NCBI GenBank assembly: GCA_964017235.1
Contig: OZ024936.1
Coordinates: forward strand, 49,155,028-49,219,027
DNA: 64,000 nt
From: Sabellastarte sp. h YS-2021
Taxonomy: Eukaryota; Annelida; Polychaeta; Sabellida; Sabellidae
Direction of reading: 5' to 3'
The notes under the pieces were generated by a model. It did not search any database, had not been told where the DNA came from, and saw only the letters and a list, made by a program, of their open reading frames with translations. The position numbers and the translations under genes were made by a program. This document shows, in pieces, positions 4,246 through 64,000 of this stretch. Numbering within the stretch: the stretch's first letter is position 1; each line of letters opens with the position of its first letter.

Positions 4246-4637
4246 CAAGAGCACTCAGAGAGTGCAGACCACCACCAAGGGAGCTCAATCTGGATCACTC
4301 CCAATATATTTTTCATGGATCCAGACAGTGATCCAGATCACTCCCAAAATCTAATCACTTGTTCCTTGTCCCATTTAGGACATATCCTGAAAATTTCATC
4401 AAAATCAGTCCATAACTTTTTGTGTTATCTGCCTTTAAAAATTACATTTCCTGGATTCAGAAGATCTAGATAGTGATCCGGATCACTCCCAAAATTGAAT
4501 CATTTTTTTCCTTTTACCTTTTCAGACATATCCTGAAAATTTCATCAAAATCTGTCCTTAACTTTTTGAGTTATCTTGTTCACAAACAAACTCACAAACA
4601 AACCCAGGTGAAAACATAACCTCCTTGGCGGAGGTAA
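4246..4637 (-). mobile_element. Short Helentron-like interspersed repeat
   Basis: Read on the minus strand it begins with the palindrome ACCTCC-gccaa-GGAGGT (4635-4619). GTTTGTTTGT-type repeats and an AACTCAAAAAGTT box follow, then two copies of a unit containing GATCCGGATCACT or a close variant and CCTGAAAATTTCATCAAAAT on the plus strand. It ends with the hairpin GCACTC-tct-GAGTGC (4265-4251) followed by TCTTGTTTG. From memory, repeats with the CTTGGCGGAGGTAA end are widespread in aquatic invertebrates. It is a compact version of the plan seen in the large elements of this window. Confidence 0.65.
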
Positions 4638-4639
4638 TT

Positions 4640-5667
4640 AAAGGGGAAAAGGAAGAATACAACATGATAGTCACAGTGAGAGGCTCCTTTTAAATTTCAA
4701 GCAAATCAAACAATGATGCATCTGTGACAAGATACATTACATTCTGGGTGGTTGTTTTTTTTCATTGTTTTTTTATTCACTTTTTTTTTACTGTCTCTGC
4801 AACAGCCACTTCCCTGTATCCAACCTTTTTGCTAAGGTTTTGCAAAATTTTGGAGTGACTCAGTTTTGCATTTCTCTCAATCCCACCTTTCTCAGGCCAG
4901 ACCTTCTCTCTTTATATGTTAACTTGCCTTTCATAGTTTGCTGTGACTGCACTTCATATTTACATTCCCAGGAGCAAAGTCATTGGTCTAACAGAATTCA
5001 CCCCGTATGTTTTTTTGTCTCATTGTACAGCTGATTTCTGTAACTGTATGGATTCCACCTTTTCTCAAGCTACATATGCCACATGGCATATTCAACATTG
5101 TCAATGAAATGGAAAGTCTTTATCTTCTTTTGTGTTATCAGTTTTGTGTTCTGATAACACAACAAATAAGCATCCTCTCAAGTCTCAGTACTGGAAACTC
5201 CCTTTCCACTGTATCAGATGTTCCTGTCTCAGGATTGCTGTAACCTTGCTTTCAGAGAAGAACCAAACTCCATGATACAGAAACTGGGTCTTGTCGTATT
5301 GGTTATTTACTAAGCCAAAGAGTTAAATACAGGGGATAAAATAAATTTAGACTGGTTTGAGGTTAACATAACCAGAGGTAAAATAACCAGACTACACCTG
5401 AAAAAGTGACACCCTATTGAACAAATATTAAAAGAAAATTGATAGAAAATAGCTATTATTTGTGATAGGTTTGTAATCCCGTTGGAAACAACAGAAATAT
5501 AAAACAACAAATATATATACATTTTATTGTGAATCCTGAGAACACCTTCTGGACTAGAAACATAAAGCAAGCTTATATATTTTATCAAAACTATATGCTT
5601 TGATAAAGTGAGGTGAATAAACATAATGTGAAAATATAATAACATATTTATTTGTCAATAAAATATG
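4640..5667. other. AT-rich sequence, nothing recognised
   Basis: No conserved coding sequence, RNA gene or element boundary is visible. Confidence 0.35.
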
Positions 5668-5675
5668 CTATCTTT

Positions 5676-7213
5676 CAGGGTTGGGGTCAAAGTACTTTGT
5701 ACTTAAGTAAGTTTGTACTTAAGTACATTTTTCAAAGTACTAAAATGTACTTAAGTACATTTTCAAATTCCAAGTACATGTACTTGAATTGTACTTAAGT
5801 ACATCTTAAATTTGATGTACTTACAAGTACATTTAAATCCTTTTTAAGTACTTTTAGTTTAAGTAAATTTTTATTAATTTTTCAAAAGTTTGTGTATTAT
5901 ATAATCATTACAACTGAATTGAGCTTTTTCCATATCTTTATTGATAACCATTCATTTAGATTAAATTTTCATAAAATTTTCACTGATATATCTGATTCAA
6001 TTTGGTAATTATGTTTCTTTAAAAAGTAGTATAATTGATAATAATAATGAATCAAATTATTTAAGTTTCAATTCAATAAGCCAATCACATCTTAAAAAGA
6101 GGGACAATTGTTCCAAGATTGCATATTACTCCCCTTCTTTAATCCTCTTATAACTGTCTACTTTGAACTTGCCTGATCTCAGTTAATAATATCTACCCTG
6201 GTATGAGTATTCTTTGTAAATTGCACCTGGGCATTTAAGAGCTTTCAATTGGTCCAAGAAAATCACAAGGACCAGATTAACACAGTCTCTGTGATATAAT
6301 TGCTCAGGAATGACTTTTTTTCAACGTATGAATACAGATCAGAAGATTGTTGGAGTAGGTAAGACTGTTGATTACAGAAAAAAGATTATTTCTTTGACTG
6401 GCCATGATCTTGTCTGACCACTCTAAATACTAGGACAGGGGGATTGACAAACCACTCACTTTTATGGTAATCACATTGTGTTAGCACAATGGCTGCTGTT
6501 TTAAAGCATTTTGAGATTCCAGCTAATACTGAAGGGAGTGTCACAGAAAAAGTGTAAACAATGTACTCAGATTATAGCAGGAAGCACAAAAGTCACTTCA
6601 ATTTCTGTCAAACATTTGAAGGTGAGGATTAGTTCATTGTTTACTTGTCACTTTTATTGAATATCAATTGTGGGTGATAACATTGTATTCAAAAGAAAAA
6701 CACCTATTTCTTAAAGGAGAATGTAATACACAGCATGCTTTCTACTTTTCTACTTTCAATTTACAAAGACTAGTTAACATAAAACTTATTATGTATAGTA
6801 TTATTGTATTAGATTAACTAATTTTCCATCATCACAACACTTAATTAATTTCTAACTTAAAGTGATTTATAAGCCCAATAGCAGGCTGGGTATTTTTTTA
6901 TATGTTGTATCTGTTGTTTTGTGAAATATTGGTAGTCACTAAAATAGAATAAACAATAATAACAGTGGGCCTTTTAATGTTATAAAGATAGTAATAAATG
7001 GATAACAACCAATTAGTGTATAATTGTAAATTTTGAATATATGTTTGAATAAACTTGGTGGTGTTTTTTTTTTTTTTTAATTTACTTCGTCATTCACGGG
7101 TGATAAGTACTTGTACTTAAGTACTTTGAGGAAAAAAGGACTTGTATTTGTACTTAAAAATTAACAAAGTACTTGTACTTAAGTACATTTCAATGTACTT
7201 GACCCCAACCCTG
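5676..7213. mobile_element. Non-autonomous hAT-like transposon, 1.54 kb
   Basis: The terminal inverted repeats are CAGGGTTGGGGTCAA (left) and TTGACCCCAACCCTG (right). They are flanked by a perfect 8-bp duplication, CTATCTTT (5668-5675 and 7214-7221), which is diagnostic of the hAT superfamily. Both subterminal zones (5690-5860 and 7105-7200) are packed with AAGTACTTGTACTTAAGTAC-like words, including the palindrome GTACTTAAGTAC. In hAT elements such clusters are transposase-binding sites. The interior is AT-rich with no transposase remnant. Confidence 0.85.
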
Positions 7214-7221
7214 CTATCTTT

Positions 7222-7729
7222 AATTGAGACAATATGATATCGTCACCAAATATAACAAGATGAGGAGGCAAAAATTAATTAAGTTTTGATACAGAAAGCC
7301 TTGAAAAAGTTCAATAGATATCACATGTAGGTCTTATATAAATGTCTCCAGCGTACCAGGATCAACGAATAACTGAAGAACGCTTCAATCAAATTATGGC
7401 GTGGCTAAGTAAAGAATATTTTCCGAAATATAAAAGTTATTTAGTATGCACCTTGAATGAACACATTCTGATGACGTAGAGCACATTAGCTGTCATGAAA
7501 AATTAAAAACACTTTGAAAATTTACGTTAGAGGTATATGTTGTGGCTATTTTGATAGTAGTACAATGTTGTCAATGAGAGTTGTTGTTATTTGTCTCGAT
7601 TTTGGTAGCTGAAGATACCTCTGCTCATTTTGTTGCCTTGCAAGACGAACCTCCACCGCCCTTCAGTTGTCCACTGTTAACCCATACTGTACTGGACCTC
7701 GTAGGAACTGATTTTGTATTACAGGAGAA
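7222..7729. other. Unassigned unique-looking sequence
   Basis: A short open frame (about 7590-7735) reads through residues such as VAEDTSAHFVALQDEPPPP but matches no family I know. It has no clear splice pair, so I do not call an exon. Confidence 0.3.
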
Positions 7730-12785: not shown

Positions 12786-13290
12786 TACATTCAGAATGAA
12801 ACAATCAAAAAAATTATGGCCACCACTATAAACCAAATCACAGTTTCGTCTGCACATGCTTTCGCAAACGTCCTTCAAGGGTCAAGTGGGTAAAGCAAAC
12901 GTAGGAAACGAAACCAGGAAGTGATTTTTAAATTGTGAAAAAAGACAACAATATATGATTCCTTTCATAACACGTACATAGGTATATGAGCATATCGCCG
13001 ACAAGACAACTCACAGACATCAACTCGCCGACAAATTATAGATAAATTAATGACACATTATTACCCCATTTTTTTGTCATTTTTTAACTGAAAAGACATT
13101 ACAATATTCAAATAATGATTTATACATGTCTTCAAAGCAGGCAAATCACATTTTTACTTGAGAAGTTTCATTACATTTTCATAGTATAACATGTTTTAGT
13201 GAAGGGAAATGAATTATTGCAGATATATAATACATTATAAAACAATTTATGGCAATATTTTAGTGTTATAAAAGCTGCAAGGGTCTTTTT
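12786..13290. other. Unassigned sequence between elements
   Basis: It contains ACCAGGAAGTGATT (about 12913), a good ETS-type binding word, near several CG dinucleotides. It could be upstream regulatory DNA of MFF, but I cannot show that. Confidence 0.25.
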
Positions 13291-13689
13291 TATGTCAGCT
13301 GACTTGTCAGTCAGCTGGCATTATGTCGTCACTCTGCGGCGTGGGCGTACGCGTACGCGTCCGCGTGAACAACTTCTCCTCCAAAACTACAAGGCCTAGA
13401 GACGTGCTGTTTTTTTTAAAAGATACCTTATCTATCGAGGATGAAAAATTGTTCAAGGCATGCAAATCTGTCTGTTCGTCTGTTTGCTAGAGACATTACA
13501 AGGGGGGTACCCCCACCAAAAGTGTGAAAATTTCAACTTTTTATCACAATTTTCTCAGTGACTATTGCAGGGATTTCTCTCATATCTTGCATATATGTAC
13601 TAGGCCAGAGGTAGATTCTCTTGTGTGAGTATGAGACCTGGATCTCTCTTACTTTTTTTTTAATAATTTTTTTTAATAATTTTTAATGC

Positions 13690-16600
13690 ATTAACATTCA
13701 TGAAATCATGCACAAAATCATTTATAACTTGAAAACTGTTGCATCTAGAGCATTTTGTTAAAATATGTTATTCAGCTACTTTTTTCATAGCTACAATATG
13801 GTGAGTAAGTTGGGTGCCTGTCTCAATAGCTAAGTGAGTAATAGCTACTTTTGGGCTTTTCAGTAACTTCCATCATGAGTAGAATCACTTGTAACTTAAA
13901 AACTATTGCATTTAGAGAATTTCGTATAAATATGTTATTCAGCTACTTTTGGGTCAGCTATAACATAGTAAAATTTTAGACCTGTAGCTCATGGCATAGC
14001 TGAGTAATAGCTACTTTTAGGTTATCACTGTTGAGTAAATTGCTTATAACTTCAAAAGTATTGCATTTAGAGAATTTCGTATAAATATGTTATTCAGCTA
14101 CTTTTGGGTCAGCTATAACATAGTAAAATTTCAGACCTGTAGCTCATGGCATAGCTGAGTAATAGCTACTTTTAGGTTATCACTGTTGAGTAAATCGCTT
14201 ATAACTTGGAAACTATTGCATTTAGAGTATTTTGTTTCAATATGTTATTCACCTATTTTGGGATCAGCTATAACATAGTGAAGTTTCAGATCTGTGGCTC
14301 ATTGCATAGCTGAGTAATAGCTACTTTGAAGTTCTCACTATTGAGTAAATCAGTTGTAATTGGAAAACTATTGCATTTAGAGAATTTCGTATAAATATGT
14401 TATTCAGCTACTTTTGGGTCAGCTATAACATAGTAAAATTTCAGACCTGTAGCTCATGGCATAGCTGAGTAATAGCTACTTTTAGGTCATCACTATTGAG
14501 TAAATCAGTTGTAACTTGAAAACTATTGCATTTACAGTATTTTGCTTAAATATGTTGTTCACCTACTTTTGGGTCAGCTATAACATAGTAAAATTTCAGA
14601 CCTGTAGCTCATGGCATAGCTGAGTAATAGCTACTTTTAGGTCATCACTATTGAGTAAATCAGTTGTAACTTGAAAACTATTGCACTTACAGTATTTTGC
14701 TTTAATATGTTGTTCACCTACTTTTGGGTCAGCTATAACATAGTGAAATTTCAGACCTGTAGCTCATTGCATAGCTGAGTAATAACTACTTTGAGGTTCT
14801 CACTATTGAGTAAATCAGTTGTAATTGGAAAATTATTGCATTTAGAGAATTTAGTATAAATATGTTATTCAGCTACTTTTGGGTCAACTATAACATAGTA
14901 AAATTTCAGACCTGTAGCTCATGGCATAGCTGAGTAATAGCTACTTTTAGGTCATCATTATTGAGTAAATCAGTTGTAACTTGAAAACTATTGCATTTAC
15001 AGTATTTTGCTTAAATATGTTGTTCACCTACTTTTGGGTCAGCTATAACATAGTAAAATTTCAGACCTGTAGCTCATGGCATAGCTGAGTAATAGCTACT
15101 TTTAGGTCATCACTATTGAGTAAATCAGTTGTAACTTGAAAACTATTGCATTTACAGTATTTTGCTTAAATATGTTGTTCACCTACTTTTGGGTCAGCTA
15201 TAACATAGTAAAATTTCAGACCTGTAGCTCATGGCATAGCTGAGTAATAGCTACTTTGAGGTTATCACTGTTGAGTAAATCAGTTGTAATTGGAAAACTA
15301 TTGCATTTAGAGAATTTAGTATAAATATGTTATTCAGCTACTTTTGGGTCAACTATAACATAGTAAAATTTCAGACCTGTAGCTCATGGCATAGCTGAGT
15401 AATAGCTACTTTTAGGTCATCACTATTGAGTAAATCAGTTGTAACTTGAAAACTATTGCATTTACAGTATTTTGCTTAAATATGTTGTTCACCTACTTTT
15501 GGGTCAGCTATAACATAGTAAAATTTCAGACCTGTAGCTCATGGCATAGCTGAGTAATAGCTACTTTTAGGTCATCACTATTGAGTAAATCAGTTGTAAC
15601 TTGAAAACTATTGCATTTACAGTATTTTGCTTAAATATGTTGTTCACCTACTTTTGGGTCAGCTATAACATAGTAAAATTTCAGACCTGTAGCTCATGGC
15701 ATAGCTGAGTAATAGCTACTTTTAGGTCATCAATATTGAGTAAATCAGTTGTAACTTGAAAACTATTGCATTTACAGTATTTTGCTTAAATATGTTGTTC
15801 GCCTACTTTTGGGTCAGCTATAACATAGTAAAATTTCAGACCTGTAGCTCATGGCATAGCTGAGTAATAGCTACTTTTAGGTTATCACTGTTGAGTAAAT
15901 CGCTTATAACTTGGAAATTATTGCATTTAGAGTATTTTGTTTCAATATGTTATTCACCTATTTTGGGGTCAGCTATAACATAGTGAAGTTCCAGACCCGT
16001 GACTCATTGCATAGCTGAGTAATAGCTACTTTTAGGTTATCACTGTTGAGTAAATCGCTTATAACTTGGAAACTATTGCATTTAGAGTATTTTGTTTCCA
16101 TATGTTATTCACCTATTTTGGGATCAGCTATAACATAGTGAAGTTTCAGATCTGTGGCTCATTGCATAGCTGAGTAATAGCTACTTTGAAGTTCTCACTA
16201 TTGAGTAAATCAGTTGTAATTGGAAAACTATTGCATTTAGAGAATTTCGTATAAATATGTTATTCAGCTACTTTTGGGTCAGCTATAACATAGTGAAATT
16301 ACAGACCTGTAGCTCATGGCATAGCTGAGTAATAGCTACTTTTAGGTCATCACTATTGAGTAAATCAGTTGTAACTTGAAAACTATTGCATTTACAGTAT
16401 TTTGCTTAAATATGTTGTTCACCTACTTTTGGGTTAGCTATAACATAGTAAAATTTCAGACCTGTAGCTCATGGCATAGCTGAGTAATAGCTACTTTTAG
16501 GTCATCACTATTGAGTAAATCAGTTGTAACTTGAAAACTATTGCATTTACAGTATTTTGCTTTAATATGTTGTTCACCTATTTTTGGGTCAGCTATAACA

Positions 16601-18075: not shown

Positions 18076-18079
18076 TATC

Positions 18080-19040
18080 CAACCTGTAGGAAATCATGGG
18101 CTGGGAATCTGTTAATATGGTCCGATTTGACCTTGGAACCCTCCTTCAAGGTCAAATGAGGATAGCCAAACATAAAAGTGCTTATAACTCGCTTATTATT
18201 GGTCCCAGAGGTTGGAATGAAAACCAACCTATAGAAAATCATGAGCTGGGAATTTTTTGGTGTGGTCGGATTTCACCTTGGACCCCTCCTTCAAGGTCAA
18301 ATGAGGATAGCCAAACTTAAAAGTGCTTATAACTCACTTATTATTGGTCCTAGAGGTTTCGAATGGAAAACCAACCTATAGAAAATCATGGGCTGGGAAT
18401 CTTTTGGTGTGGTCGGATTTGACCTGGGACCCCTCCTTCAAGGGCAGTTGAGGATAGCCAAACTTACAATTGCTTAGAACTCGCTTATTATTGGTCCTAC
18501 AAGTTTCGGATGGTAAACAAGCTACAGGAAATCATGGGCTGGGAATTTTTTTGTGTGGTCGGATTTGACCTTGGACCCCCTCCTTCCAGGTCAAACGAAG
18601 ATAGCCAAACTTAAAGTGCTTATAACTCGCGTATTATTGGTCTTGGAGGTTTGGGATGGTAAACCAACATATAGGAAATCATGGGCTGGGATTCTTTTGG
18701 TGTGGTCAGATTTGACCTGGGACCCCTCCTTCAAGGGCAGTTGAGGATAGCCAAACTTACAATTGCTTAGAACTCGCTTATTATTGGTCCTACAAGTTTG
18801 GGATGGTAAACAAGCTACAGGAAATCATGGGCTGGGAATTTTTTTGTGTGGTCGGATTTGACCTTGGACCCCCTCCTTCAAGGTCAAACAAGGATAGCCA
18901 AATTTAAAAAGTGCCTATAACTCACTTATTATTGGTCCGAGAGGTTTGGGATGGTAAACCATCCTAAATTCTTTGGCTGGGAATCTTTTGGTATGGTCAG
19001 ATTTGACCTTTGGACCCCTTCTTCATGGTGGAACGAGGAT
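18080..19040 (+). repeat. 146-bp tandem array
   Basis: About six units carry TTATTATTGGTCCTAGAGG, AAATCATGGGCTGGGAAT, GGTCGGATTTGACCTTGGA and CTCCTTCAAGGTCAAA. Spacing is about 146 bp. The unit joins the 155-bp array directly at about 18075. Confidence 0.9.
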
Positions 19041-48978: not shown

Positions 48979-49017
48979 TCTCCCGCCGGGCTTTAGCCCG
49001 GGAGGGAGATTATGAAA

Positions 49018-49060: not shown

Positions 49061-49159
49061 ACGCAGATTTCTCCAAAACTACTACAGCTACAGATTTTTT
49101 GTAAATTAATTGTCCCAATGAATTTTCATGCCCTTTAAAAAATTTTTGGTTTTATTGAC

Positions 49160-52100: not shown

Positions 52101-52160
52101 ATATAGTTTGGGGTTCTATTGCATGCCATAAGTAAGTAATAGCTATTTTCTTATTTGTGG
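49160..52160 (+). repeat. 321-bp dimeric tandem array
   Basis: Units repeat every 321 bp (49467, 49788, 50109, 50430 and 50751 are equivalent points). Each is made of two diverged halves of about 155-166 bp, marked by TGAGTAATAGCTACTTTGAA and AAGTGAGTAATAGCTATTT. The halves are homologous to the 155-bp unit. The middle units are nearly identical and the outer ones diverge, as expected for homogenisation in the centre. Confidence 0.93.
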
Positions 52161-52164
52161 CAAA

Positions 52165-53850
52165 ATAATGACATAATTTTTCTCAAATAACTGCTTCATC
52201 TACTTTTGGGAGAGCTTTCACATGGTGAACTTTCAGACCCGTAGCTAATTATTCACCTACTCAAAATGAGTAAATGATAATTATCTCTAAAAGTATTGCG
52301 GATATCCAATTTTTATCAAATAACTCATTCATCTACTTTTGGGAGAGCTTTCACATGGTGAAGTTCCAGACCCGTAGCTAATTACTCACCTACTCAAAAT
52401 GAGTAAATGTGAATTATCCCTAAAAGTATTGGGGATATCCAATTTTCCTTAAATAACTCATTCACCTACTCTTGCAAGAGCTTTCACGTGGTAAAGTTTC
52501 AGACCCGTAGCTAATTATTCACCTACTCAAAATGAGTAAATGCTAATTATCTCTAAAAGTATAGTGGATATCCAATTTTTATCAAATTACTCGTTCATCT
52601 ACTTTTGGGAGAGCTTTCACATGGTGAAGTTCCAGACCCGTAGCTAATTACTCACCTACTCAAAATGAGTAAATGTGAAGTATCTGTAAAAGTATTGCAG
52701 ATATCCAATTTTTCTCAAATAACTCATTCACCTACTTTTGGGAGAGCTTTTACTTGGTGAGATTTCAGACCCATAGCTAATTATTCACCTACTCAAAATG
52801 AGTAAATGCTAATTATCTCTAAAAGTATTGTGGATATCCAATTTTTATCAAATTACTCGTTCATCTACTTTTGGGAGAGCTTTCACATGGTGAAGTTCCA
52901 GACCCGTAGCTAATTACTCACCTACTCAAAATGAGTAAATGTGAATTATCTGTAAAAGTATTGCAGATATCCAATTTTTCTCAAATAACTCATTCACCTA
53001 CTTTTGGGAGAGCTTTTACTTGGTGAGGTTTCAGACCCGTAGCTAATTATTCACCTACTCAAAATGAGTAAATGTGAATTATCTCTAAAAGTATTGCGGA
53101 TATCCAATTTTTATCAAATAACTCATTCATCTACTTTTGGGAGGGCTTTCACATGGTGAAGTTCCAGACCCGTAGCTAATTACTCACCTACTCAAAATGA
53201 GTAAATGTGAATTATCTCTAAAAGTATTGCAGATAGCCAATTTTTATCAAATAACTCATTCACGTACTTTTGGGAGAGCTTTCACTTGGTGAATTTTCAG
53301 AGCCGTAGCTAGTTATTCACCTCCTCAAAATGAGTAAATGCTAATTATCTCTAAAAGTATTGCGGGTATCCAATTTTTATCAAATTGCTCGTTCATCTAC
53401 TTTTGGGAGAGCTTTCACGTGGTTAAGTTCCAGACCCGTAGCTAATTACTCACCTAATCAAAATGAGTAAATGTGAATTATCTGTAAAAGTATTGCAGAT
53501 AGCCAATTTTTCTCAAATAACTCATTCACCTACTTTTGGGAGAGCTTTCACTTGGTGAAGTTTCACACCAGTAGTTAATTATTCACCTACTGAAAATGAG
53601 TAAATGCGAATTATCTCTACAAGTATTGCAGATAGCCAGTATTTCTGAAATAACTCATTCACATACATTTTGGAGAGCTTTCAATTAGTGAATTTTCAGA
53701 TCCGTAGCTAATTACTCACCTACTCAAAATGAATAACTGCCTATTATCACTAAAAGTATTGCAGATATAGCCAATATTTCTCAAATAACTCATTCACCTA
53801 CATTTTGGAGAGCTTTCACATGCTAAATTTTTTTAATGAATTTTTTAAAT
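52165..53850 (+). repeat. 133-bp tandem array, second locus (about 12 units)
   Basis: Same monomer as 40280-45690 (TACTCAAAATGAGTAAATG, TTTTGGGAGAGCTTTCAC). Units are more diverged from each other and alternate between a GCTAATTATC and a GTGAATTATC form, suggesting a two-unit repeat. Confidence 0.92.
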
Positions 53851-54014
53851 AATTTTTAATGCATTAAAATTCATGAAATCATGCACTAAATCGATTATAA
53901 CTTGAAAAGTATTACATTTACAGCACCTTGTTAAAATATGTTATCTTTAGTACATCTAATTTATATGGCGGGAGATAAATGCATGCGTCAGAATGCTTGT
54001 TTGTTTTTTTTCAG

Positions 54015-54117: not shown

Positions 54118-54383
54118 GTACCAATAGTTTTATAATCTTGGTGTTTGTTTTTAACCTGCGTTAACTCCCCAAATTAACTTTCAATATCTTATAATATAAT
54201 TTTCAATACATAATACCTAGGTCACATCTTCCTGTGCTGGGGTTGTTGAGTTACAGTTGAATGGACTCGTCTACCTTGTGGTTGTGCTTCAGTCCGCCTC
54301 GTGTTTGGGTAGAACACATTTAGTGTGATTTGGTAGGGTTCACATTTGGGTAGAATGTGTTAGGGGATATATATTTTGTGGTT

Positions 54384-55330
54384 ATGTCCACCCCACAGGG
54401 TGGACATATTATTTTTGCTTTTTCTGGCATCAGCCATCTGGCATCCGCCGTCTGTCACGCTTGGTTTCCGGTCATTTCAAGGGAAAGTATTCATCCTATC
54501 TTTACCAAATTTGGTATGGGTGTTTATTGGGTTAATAGCTTGCACGGGATTGCTTTTGGTGAAGATAGCTCTATAGCTAACTGAGTAATAGCTACTTAGC
54601 TACTTTTGTGTACTTCTTTTGTTTCCGGGCATTTTATGGAAAAATATTTGACATCTCTTAACCAAATTTGGTATGAGCAATAGTTAGGTCAATAGCTTGC
54701 TTGGGATTGCTTTTAGTGATAATTGCTAAAAACTGACTGAGTAATAGCTACTTAGCTACTTTGAGTAGCTTTTTTATTTTAAGCATTTTAAAGGACAACT
54801 ATTGCCAAAAATGCAAAAACACTAATTTGCTTCTATCTCCTTAATCGTGAGAGATAGAACGATTTTGTCGAAATTTTCGACACACAGCCGTCACAGCGTA
54901 TCTTGCCAATCTACTGTATGCAATTTCAAAAAAAATTTTACTCTCTTCAAAAATGGCGGCCATTTTGAATTTTCAATTGTTGCGAAAAATGCAAAAGCAC
55001 AAATTTGCTTCTATCTCCTTAACTGTGCATGATAGAGCAATTTTGTGGAAATTTCAAACCACAGAGTGTCTTAGCAAACTACTCAATGCAATTTCCAAAA
55101 AATTTTACTCCTCAAAAATGGTGGCCTTTTTTGCCAAAAATGCAAAAACGCAAATCTGTTTCTATCTCCGTAACCGCACTAGATAAAGGGAACTGTCGAA
55201 ATTTTTGACCCCCAGGTTGTCTAAGTAATCTACTTTTGCCAATTTTTAAAAGATTTTCCTCTCCCTAAAAATGAGGCCATTTTGAATTTTGGCCGAAAAT
55301 GGAAAAACACAAATTGGCTTCTATATCCTA
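54384..55330 (+). mobile_element. Helentron-like fragment, family 5
   Basis: It starts with the perfect palindrome ATGTCCACCC-caca-GGGTGGACAT (54384-54407), then GGCATCCGCCGTCTGTCACGC. Next come two units with CTGAGTAATAGCTACTTAGC and four diverged units of the 169-bp type (AAATTTGCTTCTATCTCC; AAAATGGCGGCCATTTTGAA at 54950). No 3' hairpin end was found. Confidence 0.65.
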
Positions 55331-56627
55331 AACCAATGCAAAAAGGCATGAAGCTGAAATAATTTACATGTATACTAATAAATATTTAAGCATCATTGAT
55401 ATATTTTACAAACAAAACAGAGTCTTGTAAGACTACTGTACAATTGCTGTAAAACATTCATGTGGTGGACATTACACATGATAATGTGTTCTCTTCTATG
55501 CTATCCTGTTTCTTTCATATGTTGCAGATACTCTTGACAGGGCGTCCTATTTCTAGTTTGCATTTGGAACTGTATTATTTAAGATGTTTGAAAAACCTCC
55601 TGCGACCTCTCACAAGGTTTACTGCAATATACACGCTAGAGGCATGAATCAGGGTGGAGGGGGATGGATATATGGAATGGCTGGGTCTTCAACAGACACT
55701 AGCCAGATTCAAGGTCTTTTTTTCAGAGGAACAGGGATGACGTTAGATAGTAGAATTCAAATACCGTAAATTTCCAAAATAACGCCCAGGTTCAAATAAA
55801 CGCCTGGTTCAAATTAACGTCTGGTACCAAGCACAATGTTTACAATTTTACACTGTTTTTGTATTTCAAAATAACGCCCGGTTCAATTTAACTCCTGGTC
55901 TGATGCCATTTGAAAATAATTAATGCCCGGGCCATATTTTGAAAAATTACAGTAGGTACAGAAACAATGGCCCAGAAAGGTGTGATCAGAGCATTAGATT
56001 CTGTGTAACACCTGTAAGGGGAATATTCTTACAAGTGAAATTAGTTCTGCTATCACTGCACTAGAAAAAGAATGGTGTTCATTTGTAGGTGTAAATGGAC
56101 ATACAGACCTGTTCATACCATTACATGCTGTTGTAACAACTCGTGTTTTAATTTTTTAATTTCTGAAATTGGAACAGTTTTATTTCAGTATGGAAAATGT
56201 GTAGCTGACTTATCCTTAATGAAACTAGTAATCAAATTGGAAATGATATATTTTCTGAATGCTAGTTAAATGTAATGTTTCTTTTATATCTTTTATTTTC
56301 TTTCTGTAAAATTTTATGATGTGATCAAACTAAATTTGACTAACTCTTTAGACTCATTTACTAATAAAACTTTGTTTACTAGTAATATCCTTGTAATATT
56401 CTAATTGTTTCATTATTTTTGCAACCAGCAAAATTCACAGAAAGAGTTAATATACACACATTTGACAATGATTGTTTTTGTAGATTATTCCATATTTTTT
56501 TTCTTTTGAAAGCTACTTTGTAATCTTACAGTTTCTTAATTACATATCCTTGTCCAATGAATTTGGCAGACTTTAATTCATGTTTCCGTGTAATAATGTA
56601 GATCCTTAAGACCTTAACATATTTTTG
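55331..56627 (+). other. MFF intron sequence, with one MITE
   Basis: Mostly unique AT-rich DNA plus the MITE at 55762-55954. Possible exons near 55527-55713 were not accepted. Confidence 0.4.
55762..55954. mobile_element. Palindromic MITE, copy 2
   Basis: It begins TACCGTAAATTTCCAAAATA and ends TTTTGAAAAATTACAGTA, imperfect inverted ends starting and ending in TA. Closely related to 46604-46806. Confidence 0.7.
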
Positions 56628-56862
56628 TATCCACCGGATGCGATCCGGTGTATACTATGGATTACGCATGAGTACGCCGCTGCCGCCGCTGCAGTGTGTA
56701 GAGATTTTCTCGTTACCCCTCTAGAGGCCAGGGTATTATAGGTAGACTTCTCAAATTTTCAGGTTAAATTCATAACCATAAAATCTTGCCTGGGAATATT
56801 TTTGGCCTCATTTTGAAAAACAAGATGGCTGCCACGGGCATTTTTCAACTTTCAGAAAGGAG
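56628..56862 (+). mobile_element. Helentron-like element, family 2, left part
   Basis: The palindrome CACCGGAT-gcg-ATCCGGTG (56632-56650) follows a T run. After it come GCCGCTGCCGCCGCTGCAGTG and a unit with TTTTTGGCCTCATTTTGAA and AACAAGATGGCTGCCA. The DIRS element at 56863 interrupts it; it resumes at 63560. Confidence 0.7.
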
Positions 56863-56882
56863 TTTTTATTGCGTTAATACAA

Positions 56883-57063
56883 CTTACCTAGTGGACAGAT
56901 GCATTTGTCCGGCGCTCTGCCGGTCACGCCAAACGTTAGAAAAAAACGTCCTGAGCTGGGCTCTGGCCAGGACCGGTAGTGTCCTGTTCACTCGCCAGGT
57001 GGCTGTACAGCCTACCTGCCGGTATACTGCGCATGCGTGCGCATGCGCTCTTCCTCTTTTTGT
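56883..57063 (+). repeat. Left inverted terminal repeat of young DIRS
   Basis: Contains CTTACCTAGTGGACAGATGC and GCATGCGTGCGCATGCG, the last being a 10-bp duplication missing from the right copy. It likely holds the promoter, but no TATA box is evident. Confidence 0.9.
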
Positions 57064-57180
57064 TTGGCGCCATTTTAAAAAAGTTGTCAAGAAAGATTTA
57101 TAGAGACGTTTTTCAGTTTTAGTGTTGGATATACATTTTAAAGTTACATCAATTTTATATCAAGTTATCACTGAATATTC

Positions 57181-59388
57181 ATGGCATCCCCTGGAGATTT
57201 TAAAGGGCAGCGCAGAGGCGCGTGCGGACATATAATGGCTGCGTTTGATCTTCACGAACGTTGTGCAAGATGTAGGGAGAAGAAGTTGGGGGAGGACCCA
57301 TGTGTTAAGGACAAACCTTGCTCATTATGTGATCAATTTTCAGATACTCAAAAGGAAACTTTGTCTACTCCATCTTATAGAATAAGAAAGGAAAGGAAAG
57401 CAGGATTGCTAGTGTCCCCCAAGGAGGTGACAGTTATTTCTCCGGTGGAAGACTTGTTGTCTGCTAACGCTCCGACAGATAATTCTTCTGCGCATCCTTC
57501 TGCGCATCTAGTGCCGGAATCTCAGCCCTCTGCGCAGCCTGCCGCGCAGGCACCTGCCGCGTCTTCTGCTTCTACTTCAGACGCCTCTTATGTCACTTCT
57601 GATCAGTTAGTTGCATTATCTGACAAGATGTCTGAGCAGTTTGCCAGATTTGAGGCTCTTCTCTCAAGAGGTAACATTTTTACTGCTCCTTCTATGCCTG
57701 TTAAACCAGTTTCTGCTCAAAAGGTACTATCAGATACTCCTTTCCTTGACCCTTCTTCTGCCCGACCCACCGGTCCGGTGTGGCCTCCGGCAGAATCTGT
57801 AGATGATAACGGGTCTGATGTTAAACCGGACAAGAAAAAACCTCACAAACACAAGAAATCTGATAAGAAGACTCACCGACACTCCGGTAAACATTCTGAA
57901 AAACCCACCGACAGGCAAAAGCTTACAGCTGAATTAAATCCGGTCGGTGCAAAACCACTAACCACAAGTTCATCACAGGCACCCGCCGAAGACATGACCG
58001 ACACCGGCTCTCAAGCTCTTCCATCCAAAGCACCTGTCTCTCAGCCGGCTGGCCAGTCAACCGGTCCACCGACAAAGGAACTGTCAGCTACCGGTCCGGC
58101 TCCCTGTTACTCTCAGGCCAGTGCTAATTACAGAACAACCGGTCCGGAAGATTATTCACAGGCTAGTGTATTTTCTGATCTACCATATGAACCGGAAGAC
58201 AGTGAGCGTTATTCAGCTTCTGAACCTGATGAAGGGGAACTGTCGGATACTGGTGAAAAACAAGAAGTTACAGAGGATATGAACTACCGTGAGACAGTCC
58301 GGTCTGTTAGATCCTTTATGGGATGGAATCATATCCCGGTTTTTGAGGCTGATTTTAGTGAGCCCGACAAAAGTAACAACCCTTGGAAAGGGAAGGTTCC
58401 CAGGAGACCGTCTCGTGTGTCTGTAGCTATGCCACCAGACGACTGGTTATGTCAAAAACTTGAGCGTCTCAATACCACGGTGGCTGAGGGTTATCCCTCT
58501 AGGAGTCAAGACTCAAGTGGTCTGAAGAAGGACCAATTCATTAAGATGCCGAAATCGCAAGCACATTGGTACCAGATGCACACCCTCAAACCTGACACTA
58601 CTCCTCGCCCTGGCAAGTCCGTGTTTAGTTGGAGGAATACCGAGGCAAAAGTAAATTCACAATTTCCACGTATTACCAAGGCCTCTTCCTACCCGCCTTC
58701 TGGTCCTGTCTCACGACCTATTTCCCAAGAATATCTACGTCGATGGGAACGGAATGCCAAAGAAGGCAGCTACATTGTCAACCAGGCGGCAGGCTTTAAC
58801 AGATGTGCTAGTGAACTGCAGGACCGGATGAATCAGAGCTTAGTGTGCCTTCAGTCAAACTTCAATAAAGGAAAGGCCCCCAAAGAAGTTTCAGAGGCTC
58901 TTCACGACCTGAAAGACTACCTAGCCTTCCATCAAAATGTCTCCATTGCCATGGGAACTTCATTGCAGCATCTGGCTGACAGCCTTTTCGTCAACATGGC
59001 AAATCTTGTGCTTCTTAGACGTGACTCTTATTTAGACCATGTCAAGTCTGGAGTAAAGTCTGACACCTGGAATCGGCTCAGGAATGCCCCATTGTTCAAT
59101 TACGGTCTCTTCCCTGATGACCTGATATGCATTGCAGAACAGGATATTACTAAGTCTGAAACCACCAGTGCTGCTCCAAGGCCCGGTCCGGGTGCTATGC
59201 AGCGCACTGGGTGGCGAAACCAGAATAGGTTCCAACCCTATGATCGCCGGGATTCTAGAAATGCAGCTTCAGCTGAACCTACCCAGCCATGGCGACAGTT
59301 TGCTCGGGGCAGGGGCAGATCAAGAGGAAGGGGTCGTAGTAGTAACCCCCGTTTCTCTCACTCCCGTGGATTTAAACAACAAAAATGA
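57181..59388 (+). CDS. DIRS gag-like protein (735 aa)
   Basis: The frame is open from ATG 57181 to TGA 59386-59388. The N-terminus has a Cys/His cluster (CGH, ERCARCREKK, CVKDKPCSLC, residues 16-54), a feature I associate with DIRS first ORFs. Residues about 75-360 are low-complexity, rich in Ser, Pro, Ala, Thr and Lys, with a basic stretch (KPDKKKPHKHKKSDKK). A conserved-looking helical part follows (about 400-640), including DDWLCQKLERLN and NMANLVLLRRDSYLDH. The C-terminus is an RGRGRSRGRGR arginine-glycine tail, probably RNA-binding. By analogy it packages element RNA; this is inference. The gene's 3' end overlaps the RT frame by about 257 bp. Confidence 0.85.
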   Translation: MASPGDFKGQRRGACGHIMAAFDLHERCARCREKKLGEDPCVKDKPCSLCDQFSDTQKETLSTPSYRIRKERKAGLLVSPKEVTVISPVEDLLSANAPTDNSSAHPSAHLVPESQPSAQPAAQAPAASSASTSDASYVTSDQLVALSDKMSEQFARFEALLSRGNIFTAPSMPVKPVSAQKVLSDTPFLDPSSARPTGPVWPPAESVDDNGSDVKPDKKKPHKHKKSDKKTHRHSGKHSEKPTDRQKLTAELNPVGAKPLTTSSSQAPAEDMTDTGSQALPSKAPVSQPAGQSTGPPTKELSATGPAPCYSQASANYRTTGPEDYSQASVFSDLPYEPEDSERYSASEPDEGELSDTGEKQEVTEDMNYRETVRSVRSFMGWNHIPVFEADFSEPDKSNNPWKGKVPRRPSRVSVAMPPDDWLCQKLERLNTTVAEGYPSRSQDSSGLKKDQFIKMPKSQAHWYQMHTLKPDTTPRPGKSVFSWRNTEAKVNSQFPRITKASSYPPSGPVSRPISQEYLRRWERNAKEGSYIVNQAAGFNRCASELQDRMNQSLVCLQSNFNKGKAPKEVSEALHDLKDYLAFHQNVSIAMGTSLQHLADSLFVNMANLVLLRRDSYLDHVKSGVKSDTWNRLRNAPLFNYGLFPDDLICIAEQDITKSETTSAAPRPGPGAMQRTGWRNQNRFQPYDRRDSRNAASAEPTQPWRQFARGRGRSRGRGRSSNPRFSHSRGFKQQK

Positions 59389-61882
59389 CAGTTACCATTA
59401 CAACCCAACCTCTGTAGTCAAGACATTAAATCGGTTGGGCAGAAAACAGACTCTAAACTTAGTCAAGAAAGTTTGTCACAAACCAGTTCTTTGTTCAAAG
59501 TTAAGTCCAGTTCCACCGGAAATGGCCGGTTCCAGTATTCAAGAGACAGTAAAAGACATGTTAACAAAAAGTTCGGGTCCATTACTGGCTTCAGTTCAGA
59601 CAGGTTCAAGACCCCACACATCTCAGAATCCAGACTTTCCCATGAGGCAAGTAGATCATGTAAATCAGGATGTGTTCTTTCATGTTGCAACTCATGCTCC
59701 TTCTGTAGCTACCACCGGGCTTCCGCAAAAGAAAGGTCTAAGTCCCGTACCAGTGTTGAGAAAAATAAAGCATGTGAACAGTGTTTCTTGTGTCGATCCA
59801 TGTCTTTTTGTCCAAAATGCTCAAGGTGTCCCCACTGTTGTGAACGATGGTCCTGTAGGGGGCCGTTTTCAAAAGTTTTGGCAAGTTTGGCAAGGGTTAG
59901 GCGCAAACCCTCGGGCAGTTTCCATTTTAAAGGAGGGTTACAGCCTACCTTTCAAATTAAGACCTCCTCTCACCAGGGTTCCAATCATTCAGAGCAGTTA
60001 TGCCAATCCGGTCAAAAGCCGTTTCCTCAAAGAGGCACTGATCTCTCTCCAAGGAAAGTTGGTAGTGGAACCAGTCCTGGTCCGGTCTTCTCTCGCCTTC
60101 TACAACCGGCTGTTTTTAGTACCCAAACCGGAAAACAAGTGGCGGCCTATTTTAGATCTGAGTCGGTTGAACAAGTTCCTCAAAACCGGAACATTCAAGA
60201 TGGAAACTCCGGAAACCATCCGGACCTCACTACAGAAAGGGGAGTGGGTGACCTCGCTGGATTTCAGCGACGCATACTTTCACATCCCTATTCACCCCCG
60301 GTCGAGGAAGTACATGCGATTCTTCCTCAACAAAAGAGCGTACCAGTTCACTGCCCTTCCCTTCGGGTTGGCTACGGCTCCTCTAGAGTTCACCAAGATA
60401 GTCAAGGAGGTGAAACTTATGGCTCAGAACAGGGGTATAAGAATCCACCAGTACCTAGACGACTGGTTACTGAGAGCCCCTTCGAGGGAAATTGGTCTCC
60501 TTCACACCCAAGTTCTTTTGTCGCTTTGCCACGAACTGGGCTGGCTGGTCAACCTCAAAAAGTCGGAGTTGAATCCTCAACAGGTCTTTACCTTCGTCTG
60601 TTACCGGTTCGACCTGTTGACGGGTCGGGTTTTACCAACTCAAGAAAGATGGGCAAGCTTGCGTCAGAAGCTGTTGTTTTTAAAGGCTCGGGACAGTTGC
60701 ACGGTAAGGCAGTTCATGTCCTTGATAGGACTCTTGACAGCCACCGAGAAACAGGTCAGGTCAGGTCGTCTCCACATGCGTCCCATTCAGTGGCACCTAA
60801 AAAGACACTGGCAGGTACCCGAGGTCCTAGAGAAAGTCATTCCGCTACCTCCCTCTCTGCAACCTCACCTAGATTGGTGGTTAGACGAGGAAAATGTGTT
60901 AAGGGGCCAACCCTTACATCCATTAAGTCACGCCCTTCAACTGTTTACCGACGCATCAAACGAAGGTTGGGGCGCTCACTTAGGGGACTCTACGGCAAGA
61001 GGAGTTTGGTCAGAAGTAGAAGGTCAACTTCATATCAACTTTTTGGAACTCAAGGCAGTCTTTCTGGCCCTCAAGAGTTTCGAGCCTCTCTGTCTGAACC
61101 AGATTGTCTTGGTGGCGACCGACAACACAACTGTGGTCGCCTATATCAACAAACAGGGGGGTGTGAGATCAGGCTCTCTTTGTGCCCTCCTCTGGAGACT
61201 CCTTTCCTGGTGCCACCCCAGAGGAATAGTTCTGAGAGCCAGGCACATTCCGGGTCGGTTGAATGTCATAGCAGACAAGCTGTCCCGGCACAATCAGGTG
61301 ATCCAGACCGAGTGGTGCCTGTCCCAACAGGTGTTCAATCGCTTGTGTTCCAACTGGGGCCAGCCGCAGATAGATCTTTTTGCCACCAGATTCAATCACA
61401 AGCTTCCCAAGTTTGTCTCTCCAGTTCCGGACTCGACAGCTTGGGCGGTGGATGCTCTCAGCCTTCCATGGGGCAACCTGAATGTGTACGCCTTTCCCCC
61501 AGTCTCCCTGCTCAGTCAGGTCACATCCAAACTGGTGAATCAAGAATTTCACAGAATGATCTTAATCACTCCGGGTTGGCCCAACATGTCTTGGTTTTGG
61601 GACCTGATCAGTCTATCAAGTCAAATTCCCTTCAGTCTTCCCTTAGAGAGGAACCTGTTGACTCAACCGTTCAACGGCCTTCTCCACAGGAACTTGAATC
61701 ATCTGAATCTGCATGCTTGGCTCCTAGAGCCTCGTCCATCAGGCGACAAGGGTTCTCTGAGGAGGTGGCAGCAAGAATTGAGGCTCCTCAGAGTTCAACC
61801 AGAGCGGTCTATAAGTCAAAGTGGGCCATTTTTGTTAAGTGGTGCGAATCCAGCCAGGTGGACTTCAGGGCGCCCTCTCTAA
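59132..61882 (+). CDS. DIRS reverse transcriptase-RNase H polyprotein
   Basis: The frame is +1 relative to gag and open for 916 codons, so the true start lies in or after the overlap (ATG at 59522 is one candidate). RT motifs: WRPILDLSRLN (about residue 330), LDFSDAYFHIPI (about 372), LPFGLATAP (about 410) and the catalytic YLDDW (about 442). RNase H: LFTDASNEGWG (about 602), the Glu in INFLELKAV, ATDNTT (about 662) and RHIPGRLNVIADKLSRH (about 705). A conserved tail with QIDLFATRFN and PDSTAWAVDALSLPW follows, as in other DIRS polyproteins. All catalytic acids are present. It overlaps the recombinase frame at its 3' end. Confidence 0.92.
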   Translation: MQNRILLSLKPPVLLQGPVRVLCSALGGETRIGSNPMIAGILEMQLQLNLPSHGDSLLGAGADQEEGVVVVTPVSLTPVDLNNKNDSYHYNPTSVVKTLNRLGRKQTLNLVKKVCHKPVLCSKLSPVPPEMAGSSIQETVKDMLTKSSGPLLASVQTGSRPHTSQNPDFPMRQVDHVNQDVFFHVATHAPSVATTGLPQKKGLSPVPVLRKIKHVNSVSCVDPCLFVQNAQGVPTVVNDGPVGGRFQKFWQVWQGLGANPRAVSILKEGYSLPFKLRPPLTRVPIIQSSYANPVKSRFLKEALISLQGKLVVEPVLVRSSLAFYNRLFLVPKPENKWRPILDLSRLNKFLKTGTFKMETPETIRTSLQKGEWVTSLDFSDAYFHIPIHPRSRKYMRFFLNKRAYQFTALPFGLATAPLEFTKIVKEVKLMAQNRGIRIHQYLDDWLLRAPSREIGLLHTQVLLSLCHELGWLVNLKKSELNPQQVFTFVCYRFDLLTGRVLPTQERWASLRQKLLFLKARDSCTVRQFMSLIGLLTATEKQVRSGRLHMRPIQWHLKRHWQVPEVLEKVIPLPPSLQPHLDWWLDEENVLRGQPLHPLSHALQLFTDASNEGWGAHLGDSTARGVWSEVEGQLHINFLELKAVFLALKSFEPLCLNQIVLVATDNTTVVAYINKQGGVRSGSLCALLWRLLSWCHPRGIVLRARHIPGRLNVIADKLSRHNQVIQTEWCLSQQVFNRLCSNWGQPQIDLFATRFNHKLPKFVSPVPDSTAWAVDALSLPWGNLNVYAFPPVSLLSQVTSKLVNQEFHRMILITPGWPNMSWFWDLISLSSQIPFSLPLERNLLTQPFNGLLHRNLNHLNLHAWLLEPRPSGDKGSLRRWQQELRLLRVQPERSISQSGPFLLSGANPARWTSGRPL

Positions 61883-62791
61883 AACAAGTGGCCGATTTCT
61901 TGTTGTATCTCTTTAAGGAGAGACAGTTACAACCCAGTACTATAGAAGGCTACAGAACAGCTATTGCCGATATGTTGGGTAACGACCCGGTTCATTTTGG
62001 CAAGGATGAAAGTCTGACTCGCTTGTTGGACAGTTTCCATAGAGACAAGCCGAAAGGCAGGTGGGGAGTCCCTGCGTGGAATCTTTCATTAGTTCTCCAT
62101 CAGTTGACCAAAGCTCCTTTCGAAACCCATGCGGAAGGCCTCGCTTAAACATTTGACCTTTAAGACGGTTTTCCTATTGGCTTTGGGTTCCGGCAAAAGG
62201 CGGAGCGAAATCCATGCATGGTTATACCGCAACATCAGGCATCAGGAGAATTGGAGTCAGGTCTCATTATATCCCTCTCCCAGTTTTCTATCTAAGAATC
62301 AACTAGCGCGGGACGGCCCAGCTGCTGTGGCACCGGTTGTCATTCCCGCGTTGGCTCCATCATTGGACAGGTCCCTCAAGGAAGACAAGTCACTTTGCCC
62401 GGTCAGGGCCTTGCGTTACTATTTAGACAGGACCAAGGACTTACGCTCGGGCAAAGATCTGGTGTTTGTTTCTTTCCGGAAGAGTTTTCAGAAGGACATT
62501 GTTCCGGCCACTGTTTCTTCCTGGATCAAGCAAACTGTGTTGTTGTGCTATCAGCTTTCCGATCAGGAGGCTCAAACTATACATCAAGTTCGGGCTCATG
62601 ATGTGCGGGCCTTTGCCGCATCCAAAGCCTTTCAGGGCGGGGTTTCCTTGGATCAGATCCTATCAGCTTGCCATTGGAAGGCCCACAACACTTTTACACA
62701 ATTCTACCTGAAGGACCTAGCCTGGGCAGATTCAGAGTTGTACCACCTAGGTCCTGTGGTAGCTGCTCAGCAGATCCACGAACATCAGTAA
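61690..62791 (+). pseudogene. DIRS tyrosine recombinase, one frameshift
   Basis: The N-terminal (SAM-like) part is in one frame (about 61690-62146): VYKSKWAIFVKWC and STIEGYRTAIADML. The catalytic part is in another (62129-62791): Arg in LALGSGKRRSEIH, His-x-x-Arg in RAHDVRAFAA, CHWKAHNTFTQFY with the nucleophilic Tyr. The full R-H-R-(H/W)-Y set is therefore present but split by one extra base near 62118-62125, at GAAACCC. The shift lies next to a short A run, so it may be a real mutation or a consensus error. The recombinase inserts the circular cDNA into the host genome. The start codon is not obvious; the frame overlaps the RT gene. Confidence 0.85.
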
Positions 62792-63184
62792 TAGTCTTAT
62801 TACTGACTGTATATAGTGTACACATGTTTTTTGGGTTTAGTGTATATATATATAAAAAAAAAAAAAAAAAAAAAACCTCCACTATCCTTTGCTACTGGAT
62901 TGCCATGATCCAAGTGGATCCAGGAGCTTCTCAAGGATGGTGTTTCTTTGCTCCTGTTCTTCTTCCTCATTCATGAATTTGTTAGTTCATGCCCTCATTA
63001 GTCTTCCTGCACCTTCGGCTCGAATTGGTGCACAGGCTGTTTCCGCTTAGGAAAAATCAGGGGGGGGGGAAGGGTGTTTTGGTCCTTAGAGGTTGGTTTA
63101 TTTAACCAGTACCGGACACACCCGTTATACTATTGTCTATATGGGTTCCCCTTGTTTGGCTACCCCCCCATCCAATGGGTAGTC
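62792..63184 (+). other. 3' non-coding region of young DIRS
   Basis: Contains a run of A (62855-62875) after TATATATATA and a G run at 63060. No open frame or hairpin of note. Confidence 0.6.
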
Positions 63185-63290
63185 ATTCTGCATCTGTCCA
63201 CTAGGTAAGTTGTATTAACGCAATAAAATAGAAAATTTAATAGTAAATTAAATTTTTATAAGTTAATACCTTACCTAGTGGACAGGGGGA
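63185..63290. repeat. Internal complementary region of young DIRS
   Basis: CTAGGTAAGTTGTATTAACG complements the left end (56867-56890) and continues into AAATTTAATAGTAAATTAAA, which complements the right end (63525-63556). This is the template for closing the circular intermediate. Confidence 0.88.
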
Positions 63291-63339
63291 GTCCCACCCT
63301 ACCTTCCCCGCTATCATAACCAACAAGGGGTCATAAGGT

Positions 63340-63512
63340 AGACAACAAAAAGAGGAAGAACGCATGCGCAGTATACCGGCAGGTAGGCTGTACAGCCACC
63401 TGGCGAGTGAACAGGACACTACCGGTCCCGGCCAGAGCCCAGCTCAGGACGTTTTTTTCTAACGTTTGGCGTGACCGGCAGAGCGCCGGACAAATGCATC
63501 TGTCCACTAGGT
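63340..63512 (-). repeat. Right inverted terminal repeat of young DIRS
   Basis: Inverted partner of 56883-57063. One substitution (AGGACCGG versus GGGACCGG) and a missing 10-bp repeat are the only differences I see. Confidence 0.9.
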
Positions 63513-63559
63513 AAGGTATTAACTTATAAAAATTTAATTTACTATTAAATTTTCTATTT

Positions 63560-64000
63560 GTTGGCTTTCTAGAACAAAGGGAATTATAGGTAGAGATCTC
63601 AAATTCGCAGGATATGTTCATCATTACAAAATCTTGACTGGGAATATTTTTGGCCTCATTTTGAAAAACAAGATGGCCGCCATGGGCGTTTCTTTTCCAG
63701 TATATCTCCCTTATTATTGGTCCTAGAGGTTAAGAATGTCAAACCAACATACAGGAAATCATGGGCTGCGAATCTTCTGGTGTGGTCGGATTTGACCTTG
63801 GGCCGCCCCTTCAAGGTCAAACGAGGATAGGCAAACTTAAAAGTGCTTATAACTCGCTTATTATTGGTCCTAGATGTTTGGGATGGTAAACCAACTTATA
63901 GGAAATCATGGGCTGTGAGTCTTCTGATAGGGTCAGATTTGACCTTGGATCCCTTCTTCAAGGTCAAATGAGGATAGCCAAACTTAAAAGTGCTTATAAC
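63560..64000 (+). repeat. Family-2 Helentron-like element, right part with 146-bp array
   Basis: It resumes with a second copy of the GGCCTCATTTTGAAAAACAAG / ATGGCCGCCA unit, then 146-bp units (TTATTATTGGTCCTAGAGG, ATCATGGGCTG, GGTCGGATTTGACC) that run off the end of the window. Confidence 0.8.

Follow-up and report, generated by a model that had tools for sequence, protein, structure and literature searches.

What moves a group of repeats that look unrelated in sequence and yet are built alike, and how are their ends recognized? This question is raised by a stretch of 64,000 nucleotides from the annelid Sabellastarte sp. h YS-2021 (contig OZ024936.1, positions 49,155,028 to 49,219,027; the whole stretch is called the window hereafter). 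A first-pass annotation proposed that its repeat families are mobilized by one type of Helentron Rep-helicase that reads structure more than sequence. Our analysis of the host genome (1.786 Gb) upholds one half of that proposal. The window probably contains six families of HINEs (non-autonomous Helentrons), served by coding Helentrons and equipped with a family-specific address. HINE identity is supported because the listed genomic copies stop at the predicted ends, because empty sites exist, with TT or T-run targets and no duplication, and because elements with matches to Rep (PF14214), PIF1 and Exo_endo_phos and with the same end grammar reside in the same genome. Further support comes from two lineages of coding relatives, A and B (A-type HINEs keep the ends of their parent, and the repeats of B match those of the window), and from exact complementarity between ends, which is found only within families. 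The other half, a single Rep type that reads structure over sequence, found no support.

Families are designated by the start of their elements: family 1 (13291, 23101 and 29938), family 2 (39280), family 4 (48979), and families 54384, 56628 and 4637. All six are packed in 64 kb, and many of their elements hold kilobases of satellite-like arrays.

The element ends share a grammar

Inverted repeats had been described at eight places, and all eight were confirmed: each of these elements has an inverted repeat complementary to its 5' subterminal inverted repeat (subTIR), exact over 13 bases in copy E3 of family 1 and shorter or mismatched elsewhere. The upstream T run attributed to all of them is present in five, but in elements 39280, 54384 and 4637 a TT surrounded by mixed sequence takes its place. 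A GC-, GT- or GCC-rich run does follow most 5' ends, as read from the sequence. The palindromes had also been said to differ completely between families; the starts do not, as six of nine 5' ends compared (13291, 48979, 54384, 56628, an insertion at locus H4 and element B, the last two described below) fit the pattern TTRTNTC, which was spotted post hoc.

On the 3' side, a hairpin followed by CTTGTT is found in families 1, 48979 and 4637 as annotated, but 39280 closes with CTAGTT at 46186. The family 1 arm TGTCAGCTGAC returns as GTCAGCTGACA at the 3' end, ahead of the hairpin GCCCGTT(C/G)ACGGGC and CTTGTT; the string GTCAGCTGACAC..GCCCGTT(C/G)ACGGGC..CTTGTT terminates copies E1, E2 and E3 and an older copy, Eold. 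Family 48979 ends with GGCGGGAGAT / GGCGGGAGATAA, a GCAT/ATGC hairpin and CTTGTT at 54001-54004, while 4637, on its own strand, reads CCTTGGTGGTGGT, GCACTCTCTGAGTGC and CTTGTT, with its end at 4244. Altogether, seven end families were readable (1, 2, 4, 4637, lineage A, the H4 insertion and B), and they display a matching subterminal repeat, a hairpin and CT(T/A)GTT. Lineage A has a weak hairpin, missed by the automatic search, and one A copy has CTTGTA in place of the end motif. Within the window, no 3' end was found for 54384 or 56628, and none for 54384 in the fetched loci either. The 56628 arm has two 3'-end matches with two mismatches at most in locus L009 (positions 164 and 2157); another match, in L012, looks like chance.

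Microsatellites, central tandem repeats or both are present in the window elements, 4637 having no long array, and Tandem Repeats Finder (TRF) assigns most of the long element bodies to tandem arrays. Such abundance speaks for satellite arrays with chance palindromes, not mobile elements at all. The grammar, however, far exceeds that of shuffled sequence. A strict whole-grammar scan of the window yielded three pairs (one of them spurious), versus none in 40 dinucleotide shuffles. Since the strict version overlooked E2 and 48979, the scan was loosened: it then gave seven pairs on the plus strand (four real, two cross-pairs within family 1, and one at 57756 that is probably due to chance) and none on the minus strand, while 100 shuffles averaged 0.04 pairs and never exceeded one (four shuffles with one pair). 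Together with the dispersed, sharp-ended copies and the empty sites reported below, these results make chance palindromes in satellites hardly credible; for family 2, its empty sites refute them.

Listed genomic copies stop at or near the predicted ends

Copies were sought throughout the genome. About 40 matches were scored per search, and the figures given here are first-look candidates, not validated copy numbers; where the query included flanking sequence, stop positions were read in the 39 other copies listed. Candidates amounted to 870 for the 5' end of family 1, 1162 and 203 for the 5' and 3' ends of family 48979, 1845 for 54384, 1439 for 39280, 2819 for 56628 and 1461 for 4637. All 40 scored matches to the family 1 5' end are identical across 154 bases, which means at least 40 unchanged copies and recent activity of family 1.

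The first-pass annotation had held that genome-wide boundaries falling elsewhere would speak against its proposal. What we found is that listed copies stop at or near the predicted ends:

(i). In family 54384, 38 of 39 copies begin at query positions 50-60, 30 of them at 59 (the first base of TTATGTCC, 54382), and one begins at 78. All 39 copies begin at positions 45-56 in family 56628 (window positions 56614-56625) and at 56-65 in family 4637.

(ii). At the 3' end of 48979, all 39 copies stop at query positions 74-87. The copies listed are the longest matches and end at least two bases beyond CTTGTT; the limit of this element is stated as 54001-54004.

(iii). In family 39280, 35 of 39 copies begin at query positions 47-54, and in the remaining four the match takes in the whole flank or nearly so. 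Position 54, where 29 copies begin, is the first base of GATTATT, seven bases before the palindrome.

The heptamer GATTATT (39273-39279) that opens these 29 copies of family 2 is also present in the host repeat at the insertion (L059-L062). Possibly, these are host bases carried over from a master copy that resided in this repeat.

An arrangement of another kind was observed at 118.18 Mb of C2 (L052-L054), where three family 4 3' ends lie at an exact spacing of 3379 bp. Each of them joins the sequence that follows the element-internal T run, without the 5' hairpin. Either rolling-circle replication or unequal exchange may account for these tandem units.

Insertion occurs at TT or T runs without target duplication

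The empty sites that the first-pass annotation had asked for were found at base level for three insertions. The target is TT or a T run, and no duplication is detected beyond an ambiguous TT, as a TT borne by the element cannot be told apart from a duplicated one. Among the window families, the base-level evidence concerns family 2, with the insertion of E2 into Eold resolved roughly.

At locus H4, an element of lineage A is split by a 4.05-kb HINE of another family (TATCCCC) with ends ATATCCCCAGAC / GTCTGGGGATAT + CTAGTT; the site is empty in H6, H7 and H9, which read ATTTTGG. Another site lies in a 133-bp array, of which the intact units have the sequence CCAATTTTTCTCAAA and into which a lineage A HINE has inserted; the two ends of this HINE were fetched separately and are treated as one element. 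The third case is the family 2 element, which sits at TT inside another repeat, its initial seven bases possibly belonging to the host: with the flanks joined, 40 of 40 listed matches cross the junction, and the four that were fetched all read CGATTATTAAGC. In addition, a frame-level site is available for element B at locus H8, since two of four ways of joining its flanks preserve a single open retrotransposon frame. In one open variant the host reads GCTAATT|CTTC and the element starts with GTATCC.

These sites bear on two other classes of transposon. Cut-and-paste elements, either miniature inverted-repeat transposable elements (MITEs) or foldback elements, also have near-terminal inverted repeats and internal tandem repeats, and bivalve Pearl elements were initially termed MITE-like according to PMC7492417; with asymmetric ends and zero duplication at three base-level sites, we consider such an origin very improbable. 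Canonical Helitrons (Helitron1) do not fit either: subTIRs are present, and the targets of family 2 and of the A-type HINE are TT or T runs, not A|T. The H4 site also allows the reading A|TTTT.

Lineage A: a coding Helentron and its HINEs

A profile search with PF14214 detected 24 places in the genome, ten of which were fetched with flanks on both sides and two on the 3' side only. The ten Rep pieces (H1 to H10) fall into six groups, with an identity of at least 97% within a group (A; B; H1; H3; H5; H10), and into three when joined at about 57%. Clear Rep-spanning ends were identified by automatic searches in H6, H7 and H9 only. A looser two-strand search returned Rep-spanning matches in H5, H6, H8 and H10 that were judged spurious by eye, as they lay in arrays or lacked the 3' layout.

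H6, H7 and H9 are elements of lineage A, of 12,545, 12,269 and 12,828 bp, respectively, that span Rep. Their 5' ends read TTTTTAGG(C/T)GGGTTGCG and their 3' ends CGCAACCCGCCT..CTCTTGTT, with CTCTTGTA in H6. Each of the three carries two 5' ends, 600-768 bp apart. An open frame of 2245 amino acids is found in H7 and, scanned as two pieces, it matches DUF6570, Helitron_like_N and PIF1 above the Pfam cut-offs. Downstream of the lineage A element at the H6 locus (L020, about 18.2 kb) there is also a 5' end of family 1, which does not span Rep.

The 97-bp 3' end of lineage A gave 1043 first-look candidates; 35 of the 40 scored, H7 included, are identical over 97 bases and five over 96. Seven of 12 fetched A-type loci were readable (for family 1, five of eight), the others being stored on the opposite strand, and four of the seven show whole A-type HINEs of 591, 767, 1046 and 1147 bp. 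They have kept the ends of the parent and are internal-deletion copies. A coding partner with the same ends was found for AGGCGGGTTGCG ends, which belong to lineage A and to no family of the window.

Lineage B: a relative that carries the window arrays

The Reps of H2 and H8 are 99% identical to each other and 34-37% identical to those of lineage A. Element B at H8 extends from TATCCCCGACGCAAAGCGGGGATACTATGGATT (coordinate 2155) to CGGTGGATACATCCTGCATCTGTCCGCAGATGCGTCCTTTTTCTAGTT (22824), 20,670 bp in all, on the strand opposite to Rep. Its ends were located by reading the extended locus, not by automatic search. From the 5' end, B contains 155- and 133-bp arrays, an antisense coding block, other inserts, 147-bp-type repeats and the 3' end. 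Its repeats match those of the window at 91.6% over 1104 bp (30841-31943), 88.0% over 1085 bp (52860-53944) and 80.6% over 155 bp (26589-26742). PIF1 and Exo_endo_phos matches were detected in H2. The first lineage B frame, at L023 4874-7102, has DUF6570 and a herpes tegument N-terminal match below cut-off.

The 3' end of B gave 880 first-look candidates, and all 39 other listed copies stop between query positions 125 (final T of CTAGTT) and 138. Its 5' end resembles that of window family 56628 (77% over 39 bases, E 0.20), the order of motifs being alike and including TACTATGGATT; moreover, CGGTGGATA in the 3' subTIR of B is the exact complement of TATCCACCG in 56628.

The autonomous Helentron with matching ends that the first-pass annotation had proposed to look for was thus found in part: relatives with Rep, helicase and endonuclease domains and with the same end grammar exist, for AGGCGGGTTGCG ends in A and for TATCC ends in B, but at the loci examined none was found with the ends of families 1, 2, 4, 54384 or 4637. 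Near the decayed Rep of H5 lie a 3' end of family 1 and a 5' end of the TATCCCC type, neither of which spans it. L056 is decayed. A relic resembling the family 4 5' end was seen by eye at L010, just downstream of the H1 coding region and about 400 bp past the endonuclease frame.

Are the ends read by sequence or by structure?

Every 5' arm was compared with every 3' end in six representative families. Exact complements of 10-13 bases (10 in family 2) were found in five of six own-family combinations and in none of the 30 others. In E1, E2, 39280, 48979, A and the H4 insertion, exact complementarity extends further with the 3' arm than in the local hairpin; the reverse holds in E3 (13 bases in the local hairpin against 12).

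These figures bear on the idea that one Rep type mobilizes all families through hairpin shape and the common TT/CTWGTT ends, mostly ignoring the subTIR sequence. Such a Rep would agree with the CT(T/A)GTT that closes all seven end families read, with the TTRTNTC start in six of nine, and with array modules common to elements that differ in their subTIRs; at least 40 unchanged family 1 5' ends exist and no partner was found for them. However, exact matches between 5' and 3' arms are confined to each family, three deep Rep lineages are present among ten, and A and B each have an end sequence of their own, common to many listed copies. We consider a shape-reading Rep unlikely; it retains some weight because families 1, 2, 4, 54384 and 4637 lack an identified partner and family 1 has been recently active.

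Another reading concerns B-like Helentrons. Their address of about 12 bases (5' arm, local complement and 3' arm) might have been swapped repeatedly as a unit, with TTRTNTC, CTWGTT, the satellite-like body and the Rep lineage kept constant. One Rep lineage would then mobilize several addresses, reading the pairing of the ends and not their sequence. We grant this scenario a low but real probability.

Our preferred reading is that of HINEs with family-specific addresses. The ends, the targets, the three protein domains in A and B and the satellite-like repeats in the body of B can be read directly at the sequence level. That coding relatives are similar to the window elements in their ends and repeat-rich bodies hints that family-specific end sequences are read, and not shape alone; CTWGTT and TT would represent a common cleavage sequence to which a family-specific address is added. 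Transposition would proceed as follows. A Rep-helicase-endonuclease supplied by coding Helentrons would nick at TT at the 5' end, and one strand would be peeled off through rolling-circle replication until the 3' hairpin and CT(T/A)G|TT bring it to a halt. The strand would then be joined into a TT or T-run site with no target duplication. The 5' arm of about 12 bases and its 3' complement would serve as the address, read by sequence. B-like elements may be the source of bodies of the family 1 type, the coding block that separates the 155/133-bp from the 147-bp repeats having been lost.

Several observations weigh against this reading. At the loci examined (ten two-sided and two 3'-only, of 24), no Rep has the ends of families 1, 2, 4, 54384 or 4637; family 1 has been active recently, yet it has no visible partner. 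No ends were obtained for H1, H3, H5, H10 and the L057/L063 element, the latter without a readable end within 8.4 kb downstream of Rep. Concerning the proteins, the H7 Exo_endo_phos match is under the Pfam cut-off (22.5 of 24.5 bits), and inspection by eye detected no unbroken frame in H8 or H2: the H8 endonuclease is interrupted by a reverse-transcriptase-like insert and H2 has stops. Concerning the arms, a one-base insertion distinguishes the 5' arm of B from its 3' subTIR, the arms of 4637 match at 11 of 13 bases and fail the exact test with two mismatches, and those of Eold are decayed, with neither a 3' arm nor a local hairpin complement to be seen.

Layout of the window

Table 1. Coordinates of the elements in the window
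Feature	Position	Strand	Description
Family 1 HINE, copy E1	13290..19323	+	5' subTIR hairpin, GC-rich microsatellite, 3' subTIR at 19281, hairpin, CTTGTT
E1 arrays	155-bp array 13715-18077; 147-bp array 18079-19041	+	TRF
Family 1 HINE, copy E2	23100..27572	+	nested in older family 1 copy Eold
Older family 1 HINE, Eold	22514..29283	+	split by E2 within T-rich stretch
Family 1 HINE, copy E3	29937..33005	+	
Family 2 element	39273..46186	+	AAGCGTCCCG arm; 169- and 133-bp arrays; 3' CGGGACGCTT, hairpin, CTAGTT
Family 4 HINE	48976..54001	+	TTATCTCCCGCC; 321/166- and 133-bp arrays; 3' GGCGGGAGATAA, hairpin, CTTGTT; 3' limit 54001-54004
Family 54384 element	54382..55334	+	TTATGTCCACCC; 5' end and repeat body; right limit approximate
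Family 56628 element	56622..64000	+	TTGTATCCACCGG; split by DIRS-like retrotransposon; 147-bp array continues past window edge
Family 4637 short HINE	4244..4637	-	ACCTCCGCCAAGG arm; 3' CCTTGGTGGTGGT, hairpin GCACTCTCTGAGTGC, CTCTTGTT

A 133-bp satellite-like repeat is common to elements with unrelated ends (40278-45685 and 52175-53822), and a family-4-like GGCGGGAGAT is found inside the family 2 body at 45745. The retrotransposon nested in the 56628 element (56863-63532) has inverted terminal repeats and a reverse transcriptase match; its RNase H and phage-integrase-type matches score below cut-off. On the minus strand, 8982-11910 consists in part of fragments in which FAR1, ZSWIM and MULE transposase domains are recognized.

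Comparison with known systems

Elements of this kind are already known, and the useful part is their link to coding elements. HINEs carry satellite-like repeats to new places in invertebrate genomes, and no coding partner is linked to them in the available parts of the oyster papers PMC7492417 and PMC7992393, the second of which, a 2021 genome paper, detected no autonomous element. Our literature search, partial in scope, found no report that ties array-bearing HINEs of molluscs to a coding Helentron. With two Rep lineages that have readable ends, one of them with arrays of the window type, partner choice and end recognition become testable.

Thomas et al. 2014 (PMC4067079) described Helentrons and HINEs in Metaseiulus occidentalis, Culex and Drosophila that have palindromic subTIRs of 12-15 bp, a 3' palindrome, an unmodified T-rich or TT target, microsatellites and tandem repeats; their partner has Rep, helicase and endonuclease, the HINEs are deletion derivatives, and a Drosophila ananassae element has Rep in opposite orientation. 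Our elements resemble them in their subTIRs and the palindrome at the 3' end, in TT targets and tandem repeats, in HINEs that arose by deletion and in an antisense Rep. They differ in the packing of six families in 64 kb, in their kilobase arrays and in the existence of a 20.7-kb antisense relative with those arrays in its body.

In Fusarium oxysporum, Helitron2/FoHeli elements (PMC5148889) show asymmetric terminal inverted repeats, hairpins, group-specific ends and, in some subgroups, opposite orientation of the open reading frame. These fungal elements lack the endonuclease domain, whereas Exo_endo_phos matches are found here.

Further parallels come from bivalves. Pearl elements, later reclassified as non-autonomous Helentrons (PMC7492417), likewise contain central tandem repeats. 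The module shuffling of oyster Helitrons and satellites reviewed in PMC12628747 involves the same array type across elements, variable orientation, and nested or truncated elements; array sharing is alike, but the passages available present neither base-level empty sites nor a coding partner. Lastly, the Cg_HINEs of Crassostrea gigas (PMC7492417) are made of a 5' subTIR, a complementary inverted repeat, a microsatellite, satellite-like central repeats, a 3' subTIR and a palindrome. Eleven were described, some akin in ends or repeats and others not, and ten autonomous elements from Repbase could not be related to them. The Sabellastarte elements have the same parts and likewise differ in their subTIRs; here, however, two Rep lineages can be linked to HINEs, A by its ends and B by its body repeats and its 56628-like ends.

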